Assembly: GCA_026636295.1 (NCBI GenBank)
Contig: CP089460.1
Location: 861,183-925,182 of the forward strand
Length of the DNA stretch: 64,000 nucleotides
Reading direction: 5' to 3'
Source: Medakamo hakoo
Taxonomy: Eukaryota > Chlorophyta > Trebouxiophyceae > Coccomyxaceae
The position numbers and the translations under genes are program-made. Within the stretch, counting starts at the first letter, position 1. Every line of letters starts with the position of its first letter. Positions 22,425-39,964 of this stretch are shown here, piece by piece. The notes beneath the pieces are model-generated. The model was not told the DNA's origin, did not search any database, and was given only the letters and a program-made list of their open reading frames with translations.

Positions 22425-25400
22425 ATGGCGAGCTTGAAGGAAGCGCACCTGTCGGCGGCCATCGCCTGGTCGCCGCTGGGACCTTACCTGGCCGCGGGCA
22501 CGGCTGCCGCGGGCGTGGACGCGTCCTTTTCGTCGGCGTCGGCACTCGAGGTGCGTGTCCGCATTGATGGCAAGCGTGGCACGGCAGGGTGGCGCGGCGG
22601 CTGATGCCGGCGCACGGCGGGCTGAGAGGCGGGGACGTATGGGCAGGCACCGGTCTTGCTGGACTCTGCAAGCGGCGCCTCTTCCCACCGCTGCGCCGCC
22701 TCAATGCACGCCGCTCGTTGGCTCTGCGCGCCATCGACGCGGCGCGCTGCCTTTTTTTCCCTGCTCTCTCCCCGTCTCACGCCCACGCGTCCACGCCCTC
22801 TCAAAACCACCAGGTCCTGGTCGTCGACCTGGCCAGCCCGACGCCGGACCTCCCTCGGGCGGGCCCGCCCGCCCCCGCCCCCGACCGGTTCACCCGGGTG
22901 GCGTGGGGCACGATCGGCGCCGACGGGCCGCACCCGGTGAGTTGTGTGTTTTTTCACGCGGTCGGCACGCCGTGCCGACAGCCAGAGGCATCCGCGTGCA
23001 GGGATGAGGAAGGAAGTGCCGTGCTGCCTGAGGACGTGGGGGCGCAGGGCGAGCAATGGACGCCAGGGCGCGCGCCCCCCCTGCCCGCACGCGCCGAGTT
23101 TCCAATGCCTCCCCCCCCCCCCGCCTGCGCGCTGTGCGGACGGCACCTCTCACCTCCCGTCCCGCTCTCACGCCTTCCGCCCTTCACCTCACCAGGAGGG
23201 CGTCATCGCCGGCGGCCTGGCTGACGGTACCATCGCCCTGTGGGACGGCGCTGGGCTCCTGGGAGGCGGCGGCGGCCACCACGCCCACGCGAATGGTGGG
23301 TCGGCCCGCCCGCCTGCGTCCCCGCTCGCCCGCCTGGCCCCACACGCTGGCGGTCCTGTCTCGGCCTTGTCCTTCAACGCCGGCTCGCCCAACCTCCTGG
23401 CCTCCGGCGGCCTGGACGGCGAGCTGCGCATCTGGGACGTGGCCGCGCCGGCGTCGCCGTCGCAGTACCCGCCGCTCCAGGCGGGGAGCGGGGGGGGCGG
23501 GGGGGGCGCCGCCGGCGCCGCCGCCGCGCGCGGCGGCGCGCACCCGGCCACCGCGCTGACCGCCCTGGCCTGGAACCCCAAAGTCCCGCACATCCTCGCG
23601 TCCGCGTCCGGCTCCGGGTCCGCGACGGTGTGGGACCTGAAGAAGCAGCGGCCCGTCATCGCGCTGACCGACGGGGCGGGGCGCATGCGCCGCCCGGGCG
23701 CGCTGGCCTGGGACCCGGCGTGCGCGACGCGCGTCGCCGTGGCCTGCGGCGACGACATGTGCCCGGCGGTGCAGGTGTGGGACTTGCGCCGCCCCGCCGC
23801 GCCGCTGGCTGAGCTGCTGGGCCACGCGAAAGGCGTCCTCGCGCTCGCCTGGTGCGAGGCGGACCCGGCCCTCCTCCTGTCCGGCGGCAAGGACGGCCGG
23901 GTCGGGCTGTGGGATGTCACCGGGCCCGGCGTGCTGTTGGGCGAAGTCTGGCCGGGCGGCGGGTCCGGCGGCGGCGGCGCCGTCGCGGACGTGGCGTGGA
24001 GCCCGCACGCGCCGGGCGTGTGGGCGGCCGCCGTGCTGGGCGGCGGGCCGGCGCCGGCGCCGCCCGCCCCCCACGCGTACGGCGCGCCCGCGGCCGCGCC
24101 GTCCGCCACCGGCTCCGTGGCCGTGTGCGGGACCGCCGCCTTCAGCCCGCCGCCCGAAGCGGGCGGCCCCGGGCGCCCCCTGGCCCGCGCGCCCGCCTGG
24201 CTCGCCCGCCCCGCGTCGGTCTGCACGGGCTTTGGCGGCCGCCTCGCCTCCGTCGCGTCCGCGCACCGGACGCTGGCCGACGGCACGGACGTGCCCGCCG
24301 GGTCCGTTGCCGTCCAGGCCGGGCTGGGGGCCGGCGCCGGCGCCGGCGCCGCCGCCGGCGTCCTGGCCTCCACGGCGGAAGCATTCCTGGACGGGGAGCT
24401 CGGCGCAGGCGACGCGGCCGCCCTGGCCGCGCTGTGCGCCGCGCGCGCGGCCGCCCCCGCGCCCGACGAAGGCGCGGCGGCCGCCCCGCCCTCGCCCTCC
24501 GACGCGGAAGCGGCGGAGGAGTGGGGCCTGCTGCGCTCCCTGTTCGAGTCGGACCCGCGGGCGGCCCTGTTGGCGCAGCTCGGCTTTGCCGACGCGCTGC
24601 CCGACGGCGGCGGCGGCGGCGGCGCCGGTGCCGGCGCACCTGGGACGCCCGACCAGCCCGCGCAGCACCCGGCGGACGACGCGCCTCCACCCCAGCCCGG
24701 CACGGCGGGCGGTGACCCGGCCCGGCGCCGGTCGTCGGCCGACGGCGCGGGCTTGGGAGGCGCGGACGACGCGTCCTTTTTCGAGGACGGCGGTGCGTCG
24801 TTTTTCGAGGCGCTGCCTGCGCTCCCGCCGGGCGGCGGCGCCGCGCCCGACGCCGGCACGCCCGGCGGCGCTCCCGCGTCCGGCCCCGCGGCCGCCGCCG
24901 CCACCCCACCGCCCGCCGCCTCCTTCTTGTCGCCACGCCCCTCGTCCGCGGGCGTGGCGGCGGGCGGGGACGACGGCCTGAGTGCTGAGGACGCGGCCAT
25001 CCAGCGCGCGCTGCTGGTCGGAAACTATGCCGCGGCCGTGGCCGCCGCCCTGGCCGCCGGCCGGGGCGCGGACGCCCTGCTCGCCGCCTCGCTCGGCGGC
25101 GGCGACCTGTGGGCCCGCACCGCGCTCGACGTCGGCCGCCGCGCCCCGCGCCCGTACACCCGCCTGTTGAAGGCCCTGGCGGACGGCGACTTGGCCGGGC
25201 TGGTCGCCGCGCGCCCGCTCGACGGCTGGCGCGGCACCCTGGCCGCGCTCGCCTCTTACGCCGCGCCCGACGCGTTCCCGGGCCTGTGCGATGCGCTGGC
25301 CCGCCGCGCCGCTGCGGCGGGCTTGGGTCACGCCGCCGCGTGCGCGTGGGTGTGCGCCGGCAACGTGGACGCGGCCGTCCGGCACTGGGCGGCCGGGCTG

Positions 25401-26939
25401 GGCGTCGTCGGGCTGGACAAGGGCGGCGGCGGCGGCGGCGGCGGAGGACCGCCGCCGCCGCCGCCCGGCCCGGCCGCGGACGCCGCCCTCCAAGCCGCCG
25501 TGGAACGGTCTCTCGTCCTGGGACTGGGCGCCGGGGCCGGGTCGCCGGCGCTGGACGCGCTTGTCGGCGCGTACGCGGACCGGCTGGCGGCCGACGGCGC
25601 GCCGGCCGCCGCGGCCCGCGTCCTCGCCCTCCTCCCGCCCTCGGCGGGGCCGGGGGGCGGCGGTGCGGGCGACGACCCGGCCGCCATCCTGCGTGACCGC
25701 CTGTACCGGTGCGGCGAGCCGGGCGTGCCCCGGGGCGGGGTCGCGCCGCCCTTCCCCTTTGACGGCCACGCCGCGGCCGCGGCCGCGCCGCCGCCGCCGC
25801 CGGCGGCGGCGGGGGGCGGCGGCGGTGGTGGGCCCGGCGCGCACGCGCCCGCGCCCGGCGCGGCTGCGCCCGCCGCCACCGCCGCCTTTGCGCCCGCCGC
25901 CACCGCCGCCTTTGCGCCCGCCGCCACGCCGTCTTCGCCCGCCACCGATGCGTTCTACCAGTCGCTGGCGTACACGACGTCGGGGGCGTACGGCTCGGTG
26001 CCGCCGCCGGCGCCGGCGGCTGCGCCTGCGCCCCGGCCAGCCCACCGCCCGCCGGCCGCGCCGGCCGCCGCGCCCGCGCCCGCCGCCGCGTTTGCTCCGG
26101 CGTCCGCCGCCGCCGCGTACGCGCCCGGCACGGTGCAGCAACAGCCGCCGGCGCCGACGCCGGCGCCGGCGCCGCCTCCCCCACCGCCGCCGCCTGCCGC
26201 GGCCTACGAAGCCGCCCGTCCGGCCTCCCAGCCGGCCTTCCAACCCGCGGCTGTGGCGGCGGCGGCGCCGCCGCCTCACGCGCCGCCGCCGCCGCAGCCT
26301 GCCGCACCTCCACCCGCCGTCTTCACGCCCGCGCCCGCCGCGCCCGGCATGGTACCCGCGCCCGGCGCGGCGGTGCCGGGAGCGGCGGGCGGGCTGTACG
26401 TGCCGGGCCGGCCGGCCGCCGCGCCGGGTGTGGCGGCAGCCGGTCCGCCGCCGACCGCGTTTGCGCCGCCACTGACCGCGTTTGCGCCGCCCCCGGCTCC
26501 TCAGCAGCCGCAGGCGCCGCAGCCCGTCGCTGCGGCTCCTCCACCGCCCCCACCCCCGCCGCCTGGCCCAGCCGGCCCGCCGCCCAACATCACCGTCGCC
26601 ACGGCCGACGTGTCGGCGGTGCCGCCAAACTTGGCAGGCGCGGTGCGCGCGCTGCGCGCGCTGCACGAGCGGTCGGCCGCGGCAGCAGCGGGCGCGCCGG
26701 GCAAGAAGCGGGAAGCCGACGACAACGCCCGCCGCCTGGGGGCCCTGTTCTGGCGGCTGAACGCGGGCGAGGTCAGCCCTCGTGTCGCCGGGGCGCTGGC
26801 GTCGTTGGGGTCTGCACTGGACGCGGGCGATTTCGGCGGTGCGGCCGGCATTGCGGCGCAGCTCGCTGAGAGCGACTGGGACGAGTGCGCTGGGTGGCTG
26901 ACGGCGTTGAAGCGGTTGGTGAAGGCCGGCGGGCGGTGA
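22425..26939 (+). CDS. SEC31: COPII outer-coat protein SEC31
   Basis: Exons 22425-22550, 22814-22936 and 23196-26939 encode 1,330 residues. The start MASLKEAHLSAAIAWSPLGP and the following WD repeats (GLADGTIALWD, SGGLDGELRIWDV, SGSATVWDLKKQRPVI, PAVQVWDLRR, SGGKDGRVGLWDV) match the N-terminal propeller of Sec31. An ancestral-coatomer alpha-solenoid follows (about residues 550-880, including AAIQRALLVGNYAAAVAAAL). Next comes a long Pro/Ala-rich linker with 24-bp tandem copies near 25874, where Sec23 and Sar1 contacts lie in known homologues, and a C-terminal helical domain (about 1255-1330). With Sec13 it forms the cage of ER-exit vesicles. Confidence 0.93.
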
Positions 26940-27174: not shown

Positions 27175-27209
27175 TCACCACGCCACGGCGCTGCCGACGC
27201 CCCGGGCCG
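27114..27209. repeat. 48-bp tandem duplication spanning the GILT stop codon
   Basis: Units 27114-27161 and 27162-27209 match at 46 of 48 positions. The right unit contains the last coding codons and stop of the GILT-like gene; the left unit repeats them in its 3' UTR. Confidence 0.93.
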
Positions 27210-28207
27210 CGCCCACGCCACCGCCCCGCCGGCCCATGGCGAACGCTCCAGGCGCGATGTCGCGGCCGACCCCGACCGCGACGGGCGGCGGGGCTGTGCA
27301 CACCGCCGGGCGTTCCCCCCGGTACGCCGCGCACACCAGCGCCGCCAGGCTGGGGGCGGACGCGTCCCCTCCGATGGGCAGGCCGTCGACGACCAGCCAG
27401 GGCACGTACCGGTGCGGCGGGACCAGGCCCTCCGTCTGCGCTGCCGCGGCGCCAATCAGGGCCGCGCCTTTCGGCCCCGCCGCACACGCCGCCACGGCCG
27501 CCACCGTGTCCGCGTCCACCTTTTCGGCCAGGCACGTCTGGAACGCTTCCTTAACGGACGGGAAGGAGTCCTCGGCGCAGGTGATGACGTCCAGCCAAGG
27601 CGGGAGCGGGCGGGCCGGGGGCGGCGGGGGAGGAGGCGGTTGAGGCGGGCGCGGGCGCGGCCGGTGCGAGTGGTGGTGGTGGGCCGCCTCGACGCCGGGC
27701 CCACCGCTCAGTTCGGCCATCGTGCAGGCGTAGAGAGCATTCAGCGCGCACTCGTCCGGGCCGTGCTGGCAGGTGATATCACTCCCGTCCCGGCGCGCGT
27801 TGCCGTAGGGGATGAGGCGGAAGTCCAGGATGTCGGCGAGTTCGGAGGAGACGAGCGGGCGGGCGACCTGGTTGAGGGATGGTAGAGAGAGGGCGGTGGG
27901 AGTCGCTGGTGTGGCGGAGGTCGAAAAACCTAGCCGCCAAGGTGTTGGTCCCGTCGCGCGCGCGCGCGCGTTCCGGAACCCGCACTCCACTCACCTCGGT
28001 CAGCATCTTCGCACAGTACGGGCAGAGCGCTTCCGCGTACAGGTCCACTGCGACGCGCGGTGCGGCAGTGGCCGGCACGGCAATTGCGCTTGGCAGCAGC
28101 GCGATGGCCGGGCCATCGTACACGTCGCCCGCGGGTGGGGGGCGGGCCAGCGCCACGCACGAGAGGATAAATAGGGTCCCTAAAAGGGACCCATGCGCGG
28201 GCGCCAT
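27175..28207 (-). CDS. GILT-like lysosomal/secreted thiol reductase
   Basis: Two exons (28207-27995, 27867-27175) give 301 residues. A signal peptide (MAPAHGSLLGTLFILSCVALA) leads to the thioredoxin-like strand VDLYAEALCPYCAKML with a CPYC active site. The GILT signatures LIPYGNA and CQHGPDEC follow, then a Pro-rich loop, then YVPWLVVDG. GILT enzymes reduce protein disulfides in acidic vacuoles or outside the cell. A His-rich stretch (AAHHHHSHR) and a proline run interrupt the usual fold between about residues 115 and 140. The C-terminus is extended by a Gly/Ala-rich tail created partly by the 48-bp duplication. Confidence 0.92.
28174..28192. repeat. 7-bp inverted repeat in GILT exon 1
   Basis: GGGTCCC and GGGACCC flank a 5-nt TAAAA loop. 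It lies in the signal-peptide coding region close to the divergent start. Confidence 0.4.
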
Positions 28208-28361
28208 CACGGCGGCGTCGCGGGAAGGCGGAGAGTGTGCGCTGCGGACCGGTGGAATGATGGACGGAAGAATGAATTGCGACGCGAGCGTTCGGCCATC
28301 ACACACACACGAGTTCCGCGCAAAAACGGAAGAGAAGCGGCGCCCCGGCGGTGCAGAAGGG
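28208..28361. promoter_or_regulatory. Shared divergent promoter, GILT/homocysteine methyltransferase
   Basis: The 154 bp between the two start codons includes a CA tract near 28301-28310. No TATA box is seen. Confidence 0.5.
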
Positions 28362-29381
28362 ATGGCGCCCCGCCTCACCCTGCTCGACGGCTCCATCGGC
28401 CACCTGCTCAAACAGCAGAACATCCTGTCCCAAAGTGACGATTTCCTGCACGTCGCCCTCACCCCGGCCGGCCTTGACGCGGCGGCAGCGGCCGCTCGCG
28501 CCTACGCGTCCGCCGGCTGCACGGTGTTGACAGCCCCCAACTTTGGTGTGATACCAGCCAAACTGCAAAAGGCTGGTCGGAAGGATGAGGAGCTGGAAGG
28601 CCTGACGGCGGCGTGCGTGGCTGCCGTCAAGGCCGCGGCGTCGGCCTCGCCCACCGTCCAGGTCGCGGCGTCGACCTCGCCCACCGTCTGGGTCGCCGGT
28701 TGCCTCCCGCCCTTGGGCCCGGACTGCTACGCGCCCGCCCCGGCCGCCATCGCACAAAGAGCCCGCGATACTCAAGCCCGCATCGCTGGCGTGCTACTAG
28801 AAAGCGGAATCGACTTGTTCATCGCCGAAACGTGCTCGTGCACGGACGACGCGGCCGCCCTCCTTGCGGGCGCGGCCGACGCCGTGTCGAACAGCGGTCG
28901 CGCAACAACAGAGCCCATTCCACTGTGGATCGCATGGACGCTGGCCGACGGAGTCTGGCCGCCTCGCTTGCGCGGTGGCGAGCTGCTGGCCGACGCGGCG
29001 GTCGCGGCGGGGCTGGCGAGCAAACGCTTCCCGGCCATTTCGGTGACGGCCCAGCTCGTGAATTGCAGCGAGCCGGCGACCACGACGGCTGGGGTGCGGG
29101 TCCTGCGCACTGCGTTGCCGCCTGAAGTGGAGGTGGGCGCTTACGCAAACGGCTTTGGGACGACGACGAGCGAGTGGTTGCAAGGGAAGGCCAGCGGCGG
29201 CCGTGGGTGCGCGCAACAACCCTCCTCTTCGTCTTACGACGCCGACGGCATGATCACGCCCGCCGCGTACGCGGCCCTGGCTGTAGAGTGGATTGACCTG
29301 GGCGCGACCATCGTGGGCGGGTGTTGCGGGGTTGGGCCGGCCCACTTAGCGGCGGTGGCGGAAGCGGTGAAGAGCCTGTAG
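28362..29381 (+). CDS. HMT: Homocysteine S-methyltransferase
   Basis: A single exon of 339 residues. It opens with LTLLDGSIGHLLK (usual DGG-x-G region) and has APNFGVIP, the FIAETCSC strand, VTAQLVNCSEP with the first zinc Cys, and GATIVGGCCGVGPAHL with the paired zinc Cys. The TIM-barrel enzyme transfers a methyl group from S-methylmethionine or AdoMet to homocysteine to make methionine. The first motif reads DGSIG instead of DGGMG or DGGFA, a small deviation. A 30-bp tandem duplication (28631-28690) inserts ten residues in a surface loop. No targeting peptide is obvious, so a cytosolic enzyme is likely. Confidence 0.93.
   Translation: MAPRLTLLDGSIGHLLKQQNILSQSDDFLHVALTPAGLDAAAAAARAYASAGCTVLTAPNFGVIPAKLQKAGRKDEELEGLTAACVAAVKAAASASPTVQVAASTSPTVWVAGCLPPLGPDCYAPAPAAIAQRARDTQARIAGVLLESGIDLFIAETCSCTDDAAALLAGAADAVSNSGRATTEPIPLWIAWTLADGVWPPRLRGGELLADAAVAAGLASKRFPAISVTAQLVNCSEPATTTAGVRVLRTALPPEVEVGAYANGFGTTTSEWLQGKASGGRGCAQQPSSSSYDADGMITPAAYAALAVEWIDLGATIVGGCCGVGPAHLAAVAEAVKSL
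28631..28690 (+). repeat. 30-bp in-frame tandem duplication
   Basis: Two 30-bp units match at 26 of 30 positions and encode ASASPTVQV and ASTSPTVWV within the methyltransferase. The frame is kept. Confidence 0.9.
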
Positions 29382-29477: not shown

Positions 29478-32400
29478 TCAGTGCAGGCCGCCGCGCGCGC
29501 TCACGACGGACACCACCTCCACCGGCCGGCCGCTGCCTTCCTCTTCCGCCTGGACGGTCGTTTCGACCTCACACGCCGCGCCGTTGATGGACACGGCCGT
29601 GGGGGCCAGGCTGCTGGACGATGATGAGGAGCCTGAGACGGCCAAAGCGACTGAGACAGTGTTGCTGGCGTGCGGCCAGAGCGCCGCGGCGTCGGCCGTC
29701 ACCAAGCCTGTCAGAGCCGTGGTCGCCGCCTCTCCACTCTCCTCGCTCACGGCCTCTCCACCCTCCATGCCGGCCGCCGCCAGCAAAGACGTGTAGGGCG
29801 GGCCCACCACACTCAACCGGTACGGCGGCAGAATGGCCGGGCTGCCTTTGTTGGACAGGCGGATGACGACCAGGCCGGCTGTCGAACCCTGGCCGTCGCC
29901 CGAGGCGGCCGGGCCGGATGCGGCGACCGACACGGCCGCCAGGCAGGCCGGCGGGGGTGGCGCGTCTTCGACTGCGGCGCTCTCCTGGCTGGGCGCGCCA
30001 CCCGGGCCCGCGGCGGCGGCGGCGGCATCCTGGGAGCTGGGCGTCCCTTCCATGCCCGCCGGCAGCGGGCCCGCCCACCCACCGCTCACGCTGGTGCGGT
30101 GGGCCGTGGGCGGCAGGAACCAGGGGGCCAAGCCCAGGCCGGACGTCAGGGCGGATATGAGGGGCCAGTGGATGGGCGGGAGGAGGGCTGACGGACCGGG
30201 CGCGGGTGGCGCGGCGGCCGCTTCGGCGAGGGGTTGCGCCGGCGGCGGCGGGGCGGGGGCGGCGCTGGAGAGGACGGGCGTGGCTGCTCCGCCGTCGCCG
30301 CCGACCCACGCGCCCCACACCCACCCAGCCAGCGGGGCGGTGGCGGGAGCCGCCCTCGCCTCATTGCAGGCGGGCAAGCCGCAGCCGGGCGACAGGGTCG
30401 CGATGCAGCGGGCGAGGGCGCGCGCCGCCGCCGCGTCGCGCAGGTCGGCGCAGACGGCGCCGAGGATGAGGGGGAAGCGGCGGCAGCCGCCCCCGCCGCC
30501 GCCGCCGCCCAGGCCGCACACGCCGGGCGAGTCAAGGTGGCCGAAAGCGGTGGGGATGAGGGACGCCGGGTCGGCGCCAGAGTCGCCCCGCACTTCCAGC
30601 CGCGGCGAGAGCGCGAAGCGCCGGCCCCAGCCGCGCGCGCCCGCCTCGGTCAGGAAGGCCGCGACGCCCGGGTCGTCGGCCGGGAAGCCTGCGCCGGGCA
30701 GCTCCTTCAGCCCCGCGCCCGCGGCCAGCAGCCACGCGCCCGGAGCAGCGGCCGCCACCGCGTCCATGGCGGACAGGTAGAGGCCGGGCAGGCCGGCCGA
30801 CCAGGTCAGGGCGAGCGCGTCCGGGTTGGCCAGCGGGCGGACCGCGAGGAAGCCGCCCGCCCCGCCGCCGCCGGCCACCGCTGCGTGCACGGCCGCGGCC
30901 ACGGTCGCCCAGGCGCTGACCCAGGCCGCCGGGTCGGACGCCGCGGGAGAGGCTGGGTCCGCGTCTTCCAAGACGACGGCCAGGCCGGACGCGGAGAGCG
31001 CGGCCGCGGCCGCGGCCAGGCGGTCCAGCGCCGGGGCAGACGACGCGCGGCCGTCGCCGCACAGGACGGCTGTCGCGGCGGACAGCGCTGCGTCCGCGGC
31101 CTCGCTCTTGTCGGACGGGAAGGACGTCCACCCGTCGGCCGCGGCGGTCGCGGCCGGGCCAGGCGGGCGGGTGGCGGCGGCGAGGGCGTCGGTGTTGTTG
31201 GCGGGTGGAGCGCACGGCGCGAGCCGGCCGCGCCCGCCGCCGCCGCCCGCCAGGACGGCCGCCAGGCTGAGCGGAAGGGTCACCGCCGTGAAGCCCAGCG
31301 CTTTCAGGCGGGCGACGCCGTCGCCCAAACTCTCATCTTCCAAGCCGGCGAGCGTGGCGGCCGGGCTGTCGAAGCCGGGCCAGGCGACGCCGCGCAGGGT
31401 GAGAGGCGGCGGCGCCTGGAGCGTGGGCGGGACGGCCGTGGATGAGCCGTCGTCGTCAAAGGGAGAGCCGGACGCGGTGGAGGAGGCGTTGGCACAGGCG
31501 CCCGCCACGACGGCTGCCGCGGCGGCACCCGCCCAATCGTCGTCGACGTCGCCCTCATCGACGCCCGTCCGCCGGATGGAGACCGGGCGCAGCGGCGAGC
31601 GCTGGCCGCCCGGCCCGCCGCCGCCGCCGCGCGCGTACCAGGGCACGGCGCCGCCCGCGGCCGCAAAGGAAACCTTGTTGAAATCTAAATTGAGCCATGA
31701 GCCGTCGACCAGGCCGTGGCCGCTGCCGCTGTTCCCGTTCCACGCCCAGAGGAACAGGCCGGAGACGCGGTTGTGGCGGCCGTCGGCGCCGTCCCCGCGC
31801 AGGGTCGCCCACTTGATCAAGTCCAGCTGCGTTTGGAGGTCGCGCGCGTCCGTGAACGCCGAGCCCGTCTCGCCGATGATCACGGGAAACCTGTGGCACG
31901 TCCCGCCCGAACAGAAGCCGTAGCGGTTGAGGTACCCGGCGCTGGAACTCAGGCGCCAGTAGAGCCCGCCTCCGACGCCCTCGTCCATGGACCCGCTCAC
32001 GCTGTAAGGGTACACGTGAGGTGCGGCGGCCACCTGGTTGACGTACGGCCGGCGGATCAGCGCGGACAGGAAAGGGCGCGGGTCGGACAGGCGGCGGCTG
32101 GACAGCAGCCCGTCCTCCGTCGCCAGGCCGTCGCCCCAGTTGCGTGCCAGCCCGTACTGGCCGCAGCCCTCAAACAGCATCACAAAACCCGGCCACACGG
32201 CGTGAATGGCGTCCATGGCTTGGAGGTACAGGTCGCCCGCGCCGGGCCCGCCGGCGCGGGCTTGCCAGGACAGGCCGGCCGCGTCGGGCTCGTTCATCAC
32301 GTCCAACAGCATCCTGCCCGCGGTGCGTGGGTAGCGGGAGACCAGGAGCCGGGCGAGGTCGGCCCACTGCCGCACCCAGCGGCCCGTGTCCTCCAGCGCC

Positions 32401-33681
32401 GACTGGTCCACGTTGAGCTGGTAGTCGAGCACGACGTAAAACCCGTTGCGCACGAGGTAGTCGGCCGTCCAGGCGAGGCGGTCCGCGACAGACACGCCGT
32501 GCGTGGGGACGTAGGAAGAACACACGCCCGGCGGGTTGGTGGCAAAGGCGGGGCCCGGGCGGGGAGCGCGGGCCAGCACGGAGGCGGGCGTGCCCGGCGG
32601 GGCGGTCGCCGCGGCCACGGTGCGTGGGGAGACGGCCGGACAGTTGCGCCGGGCGACCGGGCGGGGTGCGGCGCCGTACAGCTCTTTAAAAGAGAAAGGC
32701 AGGCGGACGGCGTTGAAGCCCAACAGCTGCAGGCGGTAGACGACGGTGGCGAAATCGCCGGTGAGGCCGTTGTTCCCCGCCCACAGGCCGTCGATGAATG
32801 TGGTGCTGGTGGAGGGGGGGGGGGGGTCGATGGGGGTGGGGTGGGGTGGGTGGGGTGTGGGAGAGACAGGGCCGCGCAACGCAGAGGCGGTGTGGGCCGG
32901 CAGGGCGCTCCCCCCCAACACAGGCCACTCACCCGCCGGGCGTGTCAAAGCCAAACACGTTCACGCCCGCCAAGTAGACGGCCGCCCCCGTGCGGGCGTC
33001 GATGAGCTGGCCCGCGCGCGTCGTGAGCGCTTTGACGGGCGCGGGCGCGTGGCCGCGGCCGCCCGCTGCTTCGGGCTCGGCGCGCTGGGAGTCCGGTTCG
33101 GCTTGCTGCCCAGGCGCCGCCAGGCCGTCGTCGTCGAACACGCCTTCTACGGCGTCGGGCTCGGCGCTCGCATTGGCCGGCAGGTCGGGCAGGAGAGGTT
33201 GCAGGGCCGAGGCGGCGCTGCTCGGCCGAGTGTCGGCGTCGCGCTGCTCCACGGCGCACGCCACGCCGGCCACGCTCACAGTCCATTCGCGCGGCTGGAC
33301 CTGTCCTGTCACCTCCACAATGGAGGACAGGGAAGTCGTGGCGCCGGCTGGCAGGGCCTGCCAGTAGTGGGACGCTGAGAGGGACAACAGGGTGGCGGCG
33401 GAGGTTGGAGGCGCCGCCTCGTCGGCGGCGCCGAGCGCGTCAAAGAGCGCCAGAATGCGCGCGCCCTCACCCAGCCCGCCCACGTCGGCAGACCATGGCA
33501 CGGGCAACGTGACGCCGCCGGCGTTTGTTACGTCTAAAGCCAGCGCGACGGCCGTGGCGTTGCCCGTCTTCCACAGCGGCGTCGCCGCGACGGACGCGGC
33601 GCATGCGAAAGGCGCGGCCGCGGGGCGGGGCGACGCGTGGGCGGCCGCCGCCGCACCCGCCAGGACTAGGGCGGCCAGCAT
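29478..33681 (-). CDS. Secreted double-GH5 protein: active glycanase domain plus pseudoenzyme domain
   Basis: Two exons (33681-32933, 32805-29478) encode 1,358 residues with a signal peptide MLAALVLAGAAAAAHA. Residues about 20-160 form a beta-rich Cys-bounded domain, possibly carbohydrate-binding. The first GH5 barrel (about 230-680) runs from YLAGVNVFGFD through RLPFSF to LLDVMNEPD (acid/base Glu422) and PVIIGETGSAF (nucleophile Glu562), ending LFLWAWNGNSG. After an acidic linker a second barrel (about 735-1130) repeats the same landmarks: LTLRGVAWPGFD, VTLPLSL, LANPDALALTW, PLILGAVC, GWVWGAW. Here the acid/base position is Asn910 and the nucleophile position is Ala1033. The C-terminal ~170 residues resemble the N-terminal beta domain. 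GH5 enzymes cut cellulose, mannan or related beta-glycans; substrate is not deducible here. Confidence 0.9.
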
Positions 33682-33940: not shown

Positions 33941-35898
33941 ATGGTCCTGCACTGCACAGTGCGTTTGCTTTTTGGCGGGCGTGAAGGGGATGGGTTGCTG
34001 GTGGAGGCGCCCCCCCCCCTTGCTCAACCACCAAAAACAGTAACGAACAACATTCGCCTCCGCGCGCTCCCCGTCCACAGGCCCGCCTGGAATTCTTCGC
34101 CGCCTCATCCGCAGGCGGCCTAGGCGCGCCAGAGTCCTCGCGCACATTGAAATCCGTGGAAGTTTACGTCAGCGAAGGCGCAAGCCCGCCGCACCTGGTC
34201 CTTTCCACCCCGTCGTCCGTCGCGGCCGTGCTCCGCCTCCCGCTCGCGCCGCCGCTGTCCCTGGCCTGCGGCGGCATCCCGGCCGGGCGGCTGGGGCTCA
34301 CCTGGCCGCGCGTCAAATTGCACCCGGCATCCATTCGTGACCAGGGCATCGTGCTGATGCTGCGGGATGGAGACCCTGCCGCGACGGCGGCGCTGAAGCG
34401 AGCGGTGGTCGACGCGGTGGATGGCGCGGTGGCCAAAAAAAGGCGCCCGGGCCTGGCCCCAAGGCAGCAGCCGCTGTCCAAGCGCCCACGGTCCGCGTCT
34501 GGCGCTGACTTCACTCGTGCGACCCTGGCCACACCAAATCCGGCCCCACGCATCTTCAATCGCGCGTTCTTTGAGAGCGGCGGCCGGGTGGGAGGCGGTG
34601 GGCAGGGTGAGGCCGAGCCGCCGCCGCCGCCCGCCTCCGCTACCGAAATCCTGCCTCCCCTCTCGCCCGAACAGGCCGCCGTCCTGGCCGCCATCCTGCA
34701 AGGCACGTCAGTCTACTTCGGCGGCCCCGCGGGAACGGGCAAATCGCTCGTCCTCAAGTATCTTCTGGCGGCTTTACCCAAGCACTCGACGGCCGTCACA
34801 GCGCCGACGGCCCTGGCCGCGTCCGCCCTGGGCGGCACGACCATCCACGCCTGGGCCGGCATCGGGCGAGCCGACAGCGTCCAGGCCGCCATTGCGGCGG
34901 CCTGCAGGCCCGCCGCCGCCGCCCGGTGGCGGGCGGCGTCCGTGCTGGTCATCGACGAGGTCTCCATGCTGCCCGGCAGCCTGTTGGACCTGCTGGACGC
35001 GGCGGGGCGGGCCGCGCGCCGCTCCCCGTCCGCGCCCTTTGGCGGCCTCCAGCTGGTGGCGTGCGGCGATTTTGGCCAGCTCCCGCCCGTCGCGGGCGTG
35101 GGGGGCGCGCCGCGGACGTGGGCGTTCCAGGCGCGGGCCTGGGCGGACGCCATCCCGCTCTGCGCGACCCTAAAGACCGTCCACCGCCAGGCGGGCGACC
35201 CGGCCTTCATCGCCCTGCTCGGCCGCCTGCGGTGCGGCCGGGCCAGCGTCGCGGAGCTGGAGGACCTGCGCGCGCGCACGGCCCGCCCGCTGCCGTCCGA
35301 CGACGGCATCTTGCCCACAAACCTGCACACCCACCGCAAAGACGTGGAAGCGGTGAATGAAGCTGAGTTGAAAGCCCTAGAAGGCGAGGGCGTCACCCTG
35401 ACGGCGCTGGACGAGGGCGACGCGGGCGCGTGGGCCGGCGGGAACGGCCCCCCCCGCGCCCTGACGCTCAAGGTCGGCGCGCAGGTCGTCCTCACCCGCA
35501 ACGTGGACCCAGCCAGCGGGCTGGTCAACGGCGCGCGCGGCGTCGTCACGGCCTTCCGCGGCCGCGTTGTGCCTGTGCCTGTCGTCCGCTGGGGGTCGGG
35601 CACCGAGAGCGAGGTGCACCGCGCCCGCCACGCCCTCACCCTGGGCGGGCGCACGCTTGCCGTCCGCCTCCAAGTCCCGCTGGCCCTGGGCTGGGCGCTG
35701 TCCGTGCACAAGGCGCAGGGCATGACGCTCGACCGCGTGTGCGTGCGCCTGGACGGCGCGTTTGAGGCGGGGATGGCGTACGTGGCCCTGTCCCGCGTGC
35801 GGGGCGTGGCCGGGTTGAGGATGGTGGGCGGCGCCATTCCGCCCGCCGCTTTGGCGGCGGACCCGGAGGTGACAGCGTTTTATGACAGGCTGGGGTAG
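33941..35898 (+). CDS. PIF1: PIF1-family DNA helicase
   Basis: Exon 1 (33941-33958) supplies only MVLHCT; exon 2 (34081-35898) gives the rest, 611 residues in all. The helicase core shows Walker A GGPAGTGKS (about residue 221), [23 protein letters not shown] in two adjoining motifs, DEVSM (about 298), VACGDFGQLPPV, LKTVHRQ, GAQVVLTRNVD, VNGARGVV, and the closing VHKAQGMTLDRV and YVALSRVRG. PIF1 proteins are 5'-3' helicases that unwind G-quadruplexes, displace telomerase and maintain mitochondrial DNA. The N-terminal ~190 residues are family-specific, with a basic patch KKRRPGLAPRQQPLSKRPR that may be a nuclear signal. Confidence 0.95.
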
Positions 35899-36154
35899 GG
35901 GTGCAGTCGTAGGCGTAGAAGCGTGTAGGGGGTGGGGCAGGTGTGTAGTTTTGACGGCGGTTTTGAGATCAACGCAAGGTTTGATGGTTGGGCAGCGCAC
36001 AGAGAAAAAAGCGAGCGGGGTTAAATTTTCGATCCGCTCCCGCCGAGGAAACACAGGCGCGGCACCGCCCGTGGGCAGGCACTTCTGCACTTTACCCCCA
36101 AAGCGCACAACTGGCGTGCAGTTGCGTCAGCGGCGCAGGACGCGCGTCGAAATA

Positions 36155-37888
36155 ATGAACGCTGCAGCGCATGGGCTGCTGCGCGCAGCCGCGCTCTCAC
36201 CACCGTCCAGGCCGCGCCTACCCCTGCCGGCGGCCGCCCGCCGATGCGGGCGGCAGCCCAGGCAGGCGATGTGTCCACTGCATTCAGTGACCAAGGGACG
36301 ACAAGAGTTCCGGCGACCCGCACTGCCCGCGGAGAAAGAGGCTGCGCCACCTCGTCCGCCAACCCCGACCAGCGGCGACGAGGACGGAGCCGCAGCCGGT
36401 CCGGCCGGCCCGCCCGACGCGCCGCGCCCGCCCTGGTACTCGTCCCCGTACGACGCCGAGATCGCGGCCCTCGCCGGCCCCACGTTGGTCGCCCTGGCGG
36501 CCGACCCCATGCTGTCCATCGTGGACAGCATCTTTGCCGGCGCGCTCGGGCCAGGCCCGCTTGCGGCACTCGGCATCAACGCCGCCCTGTTCACCTTTGC
36601 GTTTGTGGTGTTCAACTTCCTGGCGTCGGCGACGACGCCGCTGGTCGCGGCGGCGGACGCGGCGGGGGACAGGGACGCGCTGGGCCGCGTCACGCTTGAC
36701 GCCGCCGCCCTCGCCCTGGGCCTGGGCAGCGCCGTCGCGGCCGCCCTGTGGCTGGGCGCCGACCCGGCGCTCGCCCTGATGGGCGCGCCGCCGCCCGGCA
36801 GCCCGGACCCAGACGGCGTGACGGCAGCCGCCAAATCCTACCTCATGTGGCGGGCCGGCGCCGCGCCCGCCGCGCTGGCCATGACGGCGGGCCAGGGCGT
36901 GTGCCGGGGGCTGAGGGACGGCAAGACGCCGCTCGCGATCGCGGCGGCCGCCAACGGCGCGCACGCGGTGCTGGCGCCGTCCCTCATGTTTGGCCCACTC
37001 CACATGGGCGTGGCCGGTGCCGCCGCTGCCACATTTGTCGCAGAGTGGGGCGCGGCGGCGGCGTACGGGCTGCTGCTGTGGCGGAGCCGGGACCGGCTGG
37101 GGCTGGACCCGTTTCCAGCGGGGTGGAGGTTGGGGCGTGGGGGCGGCGGCGGGCGGGACGGCGGCGCCGCCTCCTCGACTGCCGGTCCCTTTGCCGCGGC
37201 AGGCGGCGCTGTGCTGGCCCGGTCCGCGCTGCTGCTGGGCACAAAGACGCTGGCCGCCGCGTCCGCCGCCCGGCTGGGCACGGTCCCCATGGCCGCGCAC
37301 CAGGTGCTCATGCAGCTGTGGCTGCTCGCCTCCTTCGCCGTCGACTCCCTGGCCGTCTCGGGCCAGGCGTTGGTGGCGGGCGCGCTGGCGCGTGGAGACA
37401 AAGCCGGCGCCCGCGGCGTCGCGGACCGCCTGTTGCAGCTGGGCATTGCGGCGGGCGGTGGCTTGGCGGTCGCCCTCCTCGCCGGCGGCGGCCCCGCCCG
37501 CCGGCTCTTCACCACCGACCCCTCGGTCGACGCGGCCCTGGCGGCCCTCATGCCCCTGGCTGCTGGTGTGCTGCCGCTCAACGCCGCCGTGTACGTTTTA
37601 GACGGAGTGCTGCTGGGCGCGGGCGATTTCGCGTTCCTGGCGTTCGCCATGGCGGGCGCGGCGGGCGTGAGCGCGGCCGCGCTGCTCGCGGGGCCCGGCG
37701 CGGGCATCATCGCCGGCGGGTCCGACGCGTCGGCCGCCGACGCGCCGGGCCTGCTGTCCGGCCTGACGGGCGTGTGGGTCGCCCTGGTGGGGCTCATGGC
37801 CGCCCGGGCGGCCACGCTGGCGTGGCGGTTTCAAAGCGCGGCCGGCCCCGTCCCGCCGCTCGACAAACAGGATGGGAGACCAGGATAG
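36155..37888 (+). CDS. Plastid-type MATE efflux transporter
   Basis: One exon of 577 residues. The first ~90 residues are basic and low in acids (LLRAAALSPPSRPRLPLPAAARR), like a plastid leader, then Pro-rich. The MATE fold starts at YDAEIAALAGPTLVALAADPMLSIVDSIFAG, followed by about twelve hydrophobic helices in two bundles; the second bundle opens with LLLGTKTLAAASAARLGTVPMAAHQVLMQLW and SLAVSGQALVAGALARGD. This pattern is closest to plant EDS5/DETOX plastid-envelope members, which export small aromatic compounds using Na+ or H+ gradients. The start at 36155 is chosen because the leader follows it directly; the frame is open upstream. Confidence 0.88.
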   Translation: MNAAAHGLLRAAALSPPSRPRLPLPAAARRCGRQPRQAMCPLHSVTKGRQEFRRPALPAEKEAAPPRPPTPTSGDEDGAAAGPAGPPDAPRPPWYSSPYDAEIAALAGPTLVALAADPMLSIVDSIFAGALGPGPLAALGINAALFTFAFVVFNFLASATTPLVAAADAAGDRDALGRVTLDAAALALGLGSAVAAALWLGADPALALMGAPPPGSPDPDGVTAAAKSYLMWRAGAAPAALAMTAGQGVCRGLRDGKTPLAIAAAANGAHAVLAPSLMFGPLHMGVAGAAAATFVAEWGAAAAYGLLLWRSRDRLGLDPFPAGWRLGRGGGGGRDGGAASSTAGPFAAAGGAVLARSALLLGTKTLAAASAARLGTVPMAAHQVLMQLWLLASFAVDSLAVSGQALVAGALARGDKAGARGVADRLLQLGIAAGGGLAVALLAGGGPARRLFTTDPSVDAALAALMPLAAGVLPLNAAVYVLDGVLLGAGDFAFLAFAMAGAAGVSAAALLAGPGAGIIAGGSDASAADAPGLLSGLTGVWVALVGLMAARAATLAWRFQSAAGPVPPLDKQDGRPG

Positions 37889-38054: not shown

Positions 38055-39964
38055 TCACTCGTCCTCGTCCTCCTCTTCCTCGCCCGCCGTCCCGTCCGCC
38101 CCGCTCCCCGGCGGACAACGAGCGGTGAAGTGGACGCGGACGATGGGGACCAGCTCGCCCAGCACCAGCACGCCGGCCGGCCCCCACGCCAGGTCTTCCC
38201 AGGCGAGCGCGCGGTGGAGGACCTCGACCTCGCCGTCCGGCAGCGGCAGGCCCAGCATCCGCATCCGGCGCAGCGGCAGGGGGCGGCGGACGCGCGCCCA
38301 CCGGTAGTGCGGCTGGCCGGGTCCCGCGGACGATCCGTCGCCATCCTCGGCGGCGCCGCTCGTCCCCGGACCGGGCGCGTCGACTTGGGACAGCTCGTAG
38401 CGCGTGTCGCGCGTTTCGAGCAGCAGGACGTGGGAGGCCAGGCGGGACGACGTCCACGCCCCGCGCTTCAGCCCGCGGTCCGCGACGGCGCCGACGGAGT
38501 ATTTCAGCCAGGGTTCGTTGGCCAGGCAGTATTGGAGGGCGACCTCCTGCAGCGCGCGAGCCCGGCGCTCGGACGCGGACGCGGACGCGCGCGTGGACAT
38601 GGACCGCACGGCCGCGACGGGTTTGAAGGTGGGCGCCGGCGCGGGCGCGCCGCCCGCGCACCGGCTCAGCTCCGCGGTCGCGCCCGACCGCAGCACCAGG
38701 TACGCCCGTTCCACCCGGTACGCGCACCCCGTGTCCGGGCGGACGCCCCAGCCGCGCGAGCGGACGGCGTTGCGGGAGGAGCCGACGTAGCGGGCCGCGG
38801 GCGGGAGCAGGGCCAGGACGGCCCGCACTTCCGCGACGCCGGGCGGGGGCGCCGCGAGCGCGTGCGAGTAGAAGCCCTGGTGCATCAACGCGGCGACGAC
38901 GTCGGAGTCGGAGGTGTACACGTCCGTGCCCCACAGCTGGCGGGCGCGGACCTGGCGGTTTTGGTTGGACGCCGCGTCGGCCGGGATGCGGACCTCGACC
39001 AGGGGCGGCGGCGTGGACGCGGGCGGGCCGCCGCCGCCGCCGCCCGGCTCGTCCGCCGGCATGTACTGGGCCAGCTCGGCCAGGGGCTCGCCTTCGCGGT
39101 AGCGCAGGACAGGCAGTTTCTCCTCTGTGCGGGCGTGTGGGTGGGCGTGCGTGTGTGTAACGGCAGGGCGTGAGGGAGGGTGCACGCGCGCGCGCGGGTG
39201 GGGTGGTGGGCGGGGGGGGAGGAGACGCTGGCGGGCTCGAGCCGGCATCGCCCTTTTTTCTCTGCGCCCACTTTGTGCTGTCGTTTCTCCCCACCCACCA
39301 ATCCTGTCATTCTCACCTTTCTGACGCAGGGCGGCTGCCTTAGCCCGGCGCTCCTGTGGGAGTGGGTTGGGCGAGGAGGAGAGGGCGGGAGGCGTGAGGG
39401 CGGCGCAAAGGGAAGGGGAGCAGCGCGCAGAGTCGGCGCGAAGTGTTCACGAAAAAAAAAAAACCGCTGGGGGAGGGGTTTCGAGGGGCTTGGCGGGCGA
39501 GGAACGCGCCGTTGGGCCGCGCGGTTCCCGTTCCAGACAGTTTCATACTGCCAGGCATCGAATGGGGCTAGAGTCGCGAGCGCACAACCCTCGCAGCCCG
39601 GCCGCCGACACGCGCACAACAGCTACAAGCACAGGGCAGGCCTTGTGCGGTCGTGGGCGCCGAGGAGCGCCGTGCCGAAGAAAACAAAAACCACGCCGGC
39701 GACAGCGTGGTAATCCGCGGCCGTCCACGCGCGTTTGGAGCCGCACTCGCCAGGCCTCGTAGCAAAGGCGGAGGCGTGGTGAGGCAGCGGGGCGTCGACG
39801 ATGCGACGGCAGGGGAGCCCGCTGCTCGATCATTCATGCCGCGAAAAAAAAAAGCAGGGACGGAGCGGGCAGCAGCGAAGCAGAAAAACTCTCACGCCCC
39901 AACGCACCTCCTCCGTCTCCTCGGCCGGCCGCTTGCCGTTGGCGTTCAGCATGGTGTCGGCCAT
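38055..39964 (-). CDS. RXT3: RXT3-like histone-deacetylase complex subunit
   Basis: Three exons (39964-39908, 39353-39317, 39124-38055) encode 387 residues. Exon 1 gives MADTMLNANGKRPAEETEE, the 37-nt exon 2 gives ERRAKAAALRQK, and exon 3 continues EEKLPVLRYREGEPL; phases close exactly. The Rxt3 core is VEVRIPADAA, RQLWGTDVYTSDSDVVAALMHQGFY and later ALQEVALQYCLANEPWLKYS, and the protein ends in an acidic EEEEDEDE tail. In fungi Rxt3 is part of the large Rpd3 histone deacetylase complex. It is head-to-head with a SET-domain gene. The Rxt3 name rests on recalled family motifs. Confidence 0.85.
39354..39907 (-). other. 554-bp intron 1 of RXT3
   Basis: A long intron between the first exon and a 37-nt second exon, with A-rich patches. 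Nothing coding was seen. Confidence 0.5.

Follow-up and report, generated by a model that had tools for sequence, protein, structure and literature searches.

A tandem GH5 protein of the green alga Medakamo hakoo with an apparently intact and a catalytically dead half

The gene and its domain order

The gene discussed here lies on the minus strand of a 64,000-nucleotide stretch of the genome of the trebouxiophycean alga Medakamo hakoo of the family Coccomyxaceae (contig CP089460.1, positions 861,183 to 925,182; the whole stretch is called the window below), and encodes a protein in which two GH5 barrels stand between two CBM2-like domains. The source assembly consists of 16 contigs with a total of 15.64 Mb, and passages of the genome description give 16 nuclear contigs and a guanine plus cytosine (GC) content of 72.7% (PMC9871001). 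The window itself has 73.2% GC and holds 53 frames of at least 150 residues between 24 and 40 kb; since long chance frames are common at such a composition, an open frame alone is weak evidence for a gene. The frame considered here is spliced from two exons (Table 1), counts 1358 residues without an internal stop, and reads through the splice joint as in Coccomyxa homologs (GVNVFGFDTPGGTTFIDGLW versus GINWFGFETGTTFLDGLW). A signal-peptide-like stretch, recognized by eye with no predictor run, opens exon 1 at about residues 1–16. We consider the frame to be coding because it is conserved in other sequences and because the GC contents of the three codon positions across barrel 2 (0.78/0.70/0.92) follow the pattern typical of coding DNA. 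The value for the second position is higher in barrel 2 (0.70) than in barrel 1 (0.55), and the composition of barrel 2 is rich in Ala and Gly.

The protein is composed of two cellulase halves in mirror order, an intact CBM2-GH5 half followed by a dead GH5-CBM2 half. An earlier reading of the sequence alone had proposed that two related beta domains flank the barrels, and this is borne out by a comparison of the N- and C-terminal domains with hhalign (E 1.5e-21; best of 20 shuffles 0.11). The motifs that it assigned to both domains need some correction: the terminal Cys-Val-Glu is in fact C-x-V-E (CAVE and CEVE), and the P-x-P turn is PVP in one domain and PPY in the other. A profile of six terminal domains of the family matches the CBM2 of C. 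fimi (1exg, E 6.7e-6) and also the CBM2 of EngD, and Foldseek gave CBM2 matches to 6qfs_B (E 2.5e-5) and 3ndy_E (E 9.6e-6), which were assigned to the C-terminal domain because the models contain no other beta sandwich. No match to Pfam CBM_2 was found in a scan of the window proteins; in seven relatives this family was below the cut-off (four) or absent (three), and it was above the cut-off in three of six others.

Three columns of these domains, W1, W2 and W3, are those which we take to be the three coplanar cellulose-contact tryptophans of C. fimi CBM2a; in the alignment to 1exg, the W2 and W3 columns coincide with the Trp of QAW and APW. All 14 C-terminal domains of tandem proteins and 17 other C-terminal domains that were detected were counted, P0006 having no C-terminal match and P0020 a partial one. 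In the 17 relatives without a dead barrel, Trp is kept in 16 at each of the three positions, the odd residue at W2 being Phe. The N-terminal domains of six tandem proteins have Trp at W1 in all cases, Trp (two) or Phe (three) at W2, and Trp at W3 in five; that of the window protein has Trp at W1 and W3 and Leu at W2. The C-terminal domains of the 14 tandem proteins have no Trp at W1, an aromatic residue at W2 in four (F, F, W, Y) and Trp at W3 in seven, and the window protein has Gly, Ala and Ala.

Catalytic residues of the two barrels

First barrels (9 rows) and second barrels (11 rows) are homologous over their full length, with a profile–profile E-value of 4.5e-69 in hhalign. When the first-barrel profile was widened to 17 rows, E was 3.5e-73 as compared to a best value of 0.063 in 20 column shuffles, and unrelated domains used as controls gave 0.17 and 0.79, so that chance similarity of the barrels is rejected. 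The second-barrel set comprises the window protein and ten of 18 proteins (P0001, P0002, P0004, P0005, P0006, P0007, P0010, P0013, P0015 and P0018); left out were P0003, with two intact barrels, P0011, P0012, P0014, P0016 and P0017, with one barrel, and P0008 and P0009, with unalignable sequence after barrel 1. The profile alignments recover the pairing of MNEPD with LANPD and of IGETG with LGAVC that the sequence-only reading had claimed, and its residue numbers are correct (motifs starting at 420, 908, 560 and 1031, with E422, N910, E562 and A1033).

In predicted structures, residues 715–1151 form a TIM barrel, and the (beta/alpha)8 fold of GH5 is thus predicted for barrel 2, as that reading had supposed. 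The mean predicted local distance difference test (pLDDT) score was 70.0 for the first AlphaFold2 model and 57.5 for the second, which covers barrel 2 and the C-terminal domain; because the second model is weaker, the first carries most of the statements on fold. The best Foldseek matches and the best sequence matches in the PDB are GH5 endoglucanases near GH5_1, including 2ZUN, which stands for GH5_1 in Table 1 of PMC3526467. Judging by their titles, two further entries describe variants of the Pyrococcus enzyme, E201A in 3QHN and E342A in 3QHM.

A Pfam scan of the exon-2 frame, which lacks the first strand of barrel 1, matched the Cellulase family with E 7.1e-5 and 22.9 bits, against a cut-off of 23.5 that was passed by six of the seven relatives scanned. 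The GH5 active site comprises eight positions, Arg, His, Asn, Glu, His, Tyr, Glu and Trp, which in barrel 1 are R284, Q379, N421, E422, H513, Y515, E562 and W605. Among 17 first or intact barrels, with gaps excluded, Arg occurs in 16/16, Asn, the first Glu, the strand-6 His and Tyr each in 17/17 and the second Glu in 16/16; Trp is found in 15 of 16, the remaining one having Phe. At the strand-3 His position, 13 of 16 barrels have Gln and three have His. Two Coccomyxa gene models have local gaps, P0005 missing the barrel 1 segment with the nucleophile and P0004 the one with the strand-8 Trp; since each has the segment that the other lacks, these look like local errors in the gene models rather than dead first barrels.

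None of the 11 second barrels has a catalytic Glu at either site, so the two losses noticed in the window protein extend to all related second barrels of the set. The Arg position is occupied by Lys (eight) or Thr (two, with one gap), the strand-3 His position by Ala (eight), Ser (two) or Gly (one), the Asn position by Ala (nine) or Gly (two), the acid/base position by Asn (six) or Asp (five), and the nucleophile position by Ala (four), Ser (three), Asp (two), Thr (one) or Gly (one). The strand-6 His is gone from all, Tyr remains in one, and the active-site Trp is kept in 11/11. A shift of a catalytic Glu to an adjacent position was considered as well, as it would have spoken against a dead barrel, and was rejected, since the 11-row alignment has no conserved Glu near either site.

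The second barrels have a conservation of their own. Fully invariant columns number 37 of 366 comparable ones, as compared to 59 of 377 in active barrels. Invariants specific to barrel 2 are Glu863, Trp1078 and an inserted P-x-CGLP-[AS]-C, and Trp1083 is also present in 11/11. CGLP was found in 10 of 73 fetched proteins, exactly the ten relatives with a fully dead second barrel. The acid/base site is confined to Asn or Asp, although parsimony requires four changes between the two on a small tree of 11 rows in which two forks are open.

That the protein unites an intact GH5 with a conserved dead GH5 half is almost certain. The dead barrel and the adjoining CBM2 have lost function-bearing residues together; in the N-terminal CBM2 and barrel 1 most of these are retained.

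Table 1 Features of the tandem GH5 gene and neighbouring frames (positions in the window)
Feature	Position	Strand	Remarks
Exon 1	32933..33681	-	Frame opens with ATG and covers residues 1–249 plus two bases of codon 250; GT-AG junction
Intron	32806..32932	-	GTGAGT...CAG, 127 bp, GT-AG; from sequence, no transcript data seen
Exon 2	29478..32805	-	Remainder of codon 250, residues 251–1358, stop
N-terminal CBM2-like domain	33238..33609	-	Residues 25–148
Barrel 1	31626..33027	-	Residues 219–643; GH5 with both catalytic Glu, intron inside
Glu422, acid/base (NEP)	32289..32291	-	Glu in 17/17 first or intact barrels
Glu562, nucleophile (GETG)	31869..31871	-	Glu in 16/16 first or intact barrels with letters; sole gap is Coccomyxa model P0005
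Barrel 2	30102..31412	-	Residues 715–1151; GH5-derived TIM barrel without catalytic residues
Glu863	30966..30968	-	Glu in 11/11 fully dead second barrels; Asp in 16/16 first or intact barrels with letters
Asn910, acid/base position	30825..30827	-	N 6, D 5 among 11 second barrels
Ala1033, nucleophile position	30456..30458	-	A 4, S 3, D 2, T 1, G 1 among 11 second barrels; Glu in none
CGLPAC insertion	30366..30383	-	Residues 1058–1063; CGLP-x-C in 11/11 fully dead second barrels, specific to them
C-terminal CBM2-like domain	29553..29948	-	Residues 1203–1334; three contact positions lost (G, A, A)
WD40 protein	22944-26936	+	Neighbour frame; Sec31-like by eye
GILT thiol reductase	27178-27990	-	Neighbour frame
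Homocysteine S-methyltransferase	27879-29378	+	Neighbour frame
PIF1 helicase	34147-35895	+	Neighbour frame
MATE transporter	35882-37885	+	Neighbour frame
Rxt3-domain protein	38058-39248	-	Neighbour frame

Relatives and origin of the tandem

The protein, for which the sequence-only reading knew of no described counterpart of this exact design, is not unique: relatives of the same design exist in Coccomyxa and among other deposited sequences (JGI/ENA), and less decayed versions occur in Trebouxia and Apatococcus. The profile search yielded 55 further proteins, of which four (P0019, P0020, P0024 and P0026) are tandem by domain scan; 11 of the remaining 51 were used in the larger tree. The second barrels of P0019 (Trebouxia sp.) and P0020 (Apatococcus) have lost the acid/base, which is replaced by Tyr and Asp, respectively, and the strand-6 pair; their nucleophile motif still contains Glu (EVG and EFG), CGLP is missing and the Glu863 column has Ser. 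The strand-6 and strand-7 sites of P0024 and P0026 fall in gaps; Trp is the sole active-site residue kept, and Gln occupies the Glu863 column.

In unrooted trees with 10 and 14 second-barrel rows, all second barrels fall to the same side of a branch supported at 100/100; the incomplete barrels B1_P0013 and B2_P0015 were excluded. Because second barrels from different sources group in this way, a recent duplication within Medakamo is rejected. The second barrels of the Coccomyxa and Medakamo lineages are about 30% identical. When the barrel 2 region of P0005 served as query, the only matches among 7993 scored candidates were P0003, P0004 and the query itself, and an NCBIfam scan of three proteins gave no matches.

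The proposal that a duplication was followed by conversion of one copy to a pseudoenzyme stands in its second part, which is borne out by the homology, the predicted fold and the losses in 11/11 second barrels; the duplication has to be placed beside a fusion of genes. A joint clade of first and second barrels, which would be required if one internal duplication had followed the single-barrel forms, is rejected by the approximately unbiased (AU) test (p-AU 2.4e-5). As long branches and skewed composition make this rejection unsafe, the tandem may have arisen either by internal duplication or by fusion of neighbouring cellulase genes. How two adjacent units could fuse into the design of the window protein is illustrated by P0003 of Elliptochloris bilobata (WJX81_004175, 1786 residues), in which CBM2-GH5-CBM2 is followed by a stretch resembling a lipid transfer protein (by eye) and a second CBM2-GH5-CBM2. 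Both its barrels have both catalytic Glu; the record represents either adjacent genes joined in one model or a tandem with two intact copies. Two close single-barrel relatives, P0025 and P0035, are labelled as metagenome-assembled genomes of Chlamydiales and Deltaproteobacteria; they are either bacterial members of the clade, acquired by gene transfer, or mis-binned algal contigs.

Four paralogs of the family were read in the Medakamo genome, two of them at locus L012 and one each at L016 and L018. All have a single barrel with the NEPD motif and a nucleophile motif with Glu (ETG, EVG, EFG and ETS). No other dead second barrel was found in these four genes; the search covered ten stretches selected by a PF00150 scan and is not a census of the genome. 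The two paralogs at L012 (G000:C6:1071000-1080900) are divergent; the one on the plus strand has the order CBM2-GH5-CBM2, and the one on the minus strand extends past the fetched stretch. A further Medakamo GH5 gene (L009, G000:C5:122500-132400), which the profile of the tandem GH5 family matches weakly, has a C-terminal domain that passes the Pfam cut-off of CBM49 as well as that of CBM_2. The six neighbouring frames in the window (Table 1) contain no carbohydrate enzyme.

Known systems and possible function

The best fold and sequence matches are endoglucanases near GH5_1, namely Pyrococcus horikoshii EGPh (2ZUN/3AXX), Acidothermus E1 (1ECE), the Xanthomonas major endoglucanase (4TUF) and a metagenomic enzyme (8FC0), and barrel 1 shares with them both catalytic Glu. 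Unlike these, the window protein has two barrels per chain and Gln for His in barrel 1, and in its barrel 2 the catalytic pair is gone together with almost every first-shell residue. In having a GH5 fold without complete catalytic machinery, barrel 2 resembles the non-catalytic GH5 modules described in 2012 in passages of PMC3526467, which are a Xanthomonas module fused to expansin and CBM63 that came out of GH5_1, GH5_30, and Rsi24C-GH5 of C. thermocellum, a sensor module that lost its acid/base and attaches to crystalline cellulose. These known modules are paired with expansin and CBM63, with an anti-sigma factor or with a lipoprotein extension, whereas the dead module described here, which is from green algae, shares its chain with an intact GH5 and a contact-depleted CBM2. 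Tandems of carbohydrate-enzyme domains in which an inactive copy binds a ligand are also known from Klotho (GH1-like) and PgaB (CE4-related, the C-terminal domain inactive), as described in part of PMC7828330; these differ in enzyme family, host and ligand, no homology is claimed, and the window models match GH5 best. The terminal domains match the CBM2 modules of C. fimi (1EXG/6QFS) and of C. cellulovorans EngD (3NDY) by fold and profile, but the C-terminal copy lacks all three contact aromatics and the window has no Pfam CBM_2 match. Inactive GH5 modules were known before, as were, in other families, tandems with an inactive copy; among the matches listed from the open-access PMC literature, no paper deals with a live/dead GH5 tandem or with this algal protein. 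The deposited name of one relative, "probable major extracellular endoglucanase at N-terminal half", hints at the dead half.

The relatives have kept the dead copy too, and the dead half therefore probably serves a job other than cutting. The live half would cut beta-1,4-glucan in the alga's own wall, during growth or for the release of daughter cells, and the dead half would be its non-catalytic partner module. Passages of the literature provide a setting for this: 22 of 24 characterized GH5_1 enzymes are reported to be endoglucanases (PMC3526467), Coccomyxa subellipsoidea C-169 has 22 cellulase-family proteins and, by prediction, cellulose in its wall (PMC3446292), and in Trebouxiophyceae such as Chlorella division proceeds by autospores (PMC12868012), which implies a need for control of the wall. 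The chances that this whole statement is right, i.e. a secreted beta-1,4-glucanase whose live half cuts wall glucan and whose dead half is a wall-binding partner, seem to us evenly balanced. The dead half would most likely hold or position the live half in the wall through a ligand other than crystalline cellulose, either another wall polymer or a wall protein. The place of binding may be the former barrel's mouth with its fixed Glu863, Asn/Asp910 and Trp1083, which to us falls just short of an even chance. As to the glycan-binding role that the sequence-only reading suggested, the loss of the presumed contact tryptophans of the CBM2 speaks against the dead half attaching to cellulose in the ordinary way, and since cleft residues are lost as well, cellulose is an unlikely ligand and another wall component or a protein is favoured. 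On a further reading, which is less likely than not, a whole cellulase, its cutting part as well as the part that grips cellulose, would have been turned into a specific receptor or scaffold for a non-cellulosic wall component, a new kind of algal wall-binding or regulatory module with its own conserved site (Glu863, Asn/Asp910, Trp1078/1083 and CGLPAC), kept since before the split of Coccomyxa and Medakamo; Trebouxia and Apatococcus, with the acid/base lost and the nucleophile Glu present, would represent an earlier step.

Several observations weigh against the main interpretation. Gln379 stands in barrel 1 where GH5 usually has His, which makes the activity of the live half likely rather than certain. 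Barrel 2 is conserved less than barrel 1 in 36/36 protein pairs (50% identity for barrel 1 and 31% for barrel 2 between the window protein and C. subellipsoidea), which is also expected from partly relaxed selection. At 14 of the 59 positions that are near-invariant in active barrels, among them Trp473, the residue survives in one second barrel or in none, which makes a glycan cleft of the former type unlikely, and the altered C-terminal CBM2 has no obvious cellulose-binding surface. The Glu863 column has Ser, Ser, Gln and Gln in the four other tandem proteins and CGLP occurs in none of them, so that these features mark the fully dead group only. Finally, long-branch attraction and a skewed composition may contribute to the way in which the second barrels group in the tree.

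It is possible, though somewhat unlikely, that the dead half is purely a scaffold or regulator, which offers a protein–protein interface to a wall protein, to an inhibitor or to the live half itself and has no glycan ligand. The joint loss of cleft residues and CBM2 contact tryptophans in a fold that is kept would fit such a role, as would the new two-Cys insertion CGLP-x-C in 11/11 and the precedent of Klotho, whose inactive tandem GH1-like domains bind a protein ligand according to part of PMC7828330; however, no partner of the dead half is known and no interface can be read from the models, which have no inter-domain error map. Distinctly unlikely is a slowly decaying leftover, a spacer without ligand that is kept only since its removal would destabilize the protein. 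The weaker conservation in all pairs, the Ala/Gly-rich composition with its raised second-position GC, and the second barrels of P0024 and P0026, reduced to the Trp, agree with decay, but full invariance of barrel-2-specific residues, restriction of the old acid/base site to Asn or Asp and retention of the dead half in two lineages whose second barrels have diverged to about 30% identity do not. An altered enzyme, with a new catalytic centre in barrel 2 (e.g. Glu863 with Asp/Asn910) acting on a different bond, is highly improbable: Glu863, Asn or Asp at 910 and Trp1083 are each found in 11/11, and a passage of PMC3526467 leaves open "alternate mechanisms" for catalytically incomplete GH5 modules, but residue 910 is Asn in six of 11, the nucleophile site offers no second conserved carboxylate, and the equivalents of Arg284, Asn421, His513 and (in 10/11) Tyr515 are gone. 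The chance that mis-assembly, mis-splicing or a chance frame has produced a false second barrel is negligible, since in spite of the frequency of long frames at 73% GC and the local gaps in two Coccomyxa gene models, the same domain order occurs in separate Coccomyxa, Trebouxia and JGI/ENA sequences and codon-position GC is of the coding type throughout barrel 2.

For annotators the protein holds a warning, since automatic naming counts such proteins plainly as cellulase. Pseudoenzyme domains are common; here, an intact and a dead copy occur in one chain, with apparent intermediates of decay in relatives and with an adjoining binding module that loses residues in parallel with barrel 2. The case bears on how walled microalgae control their own cellulases.

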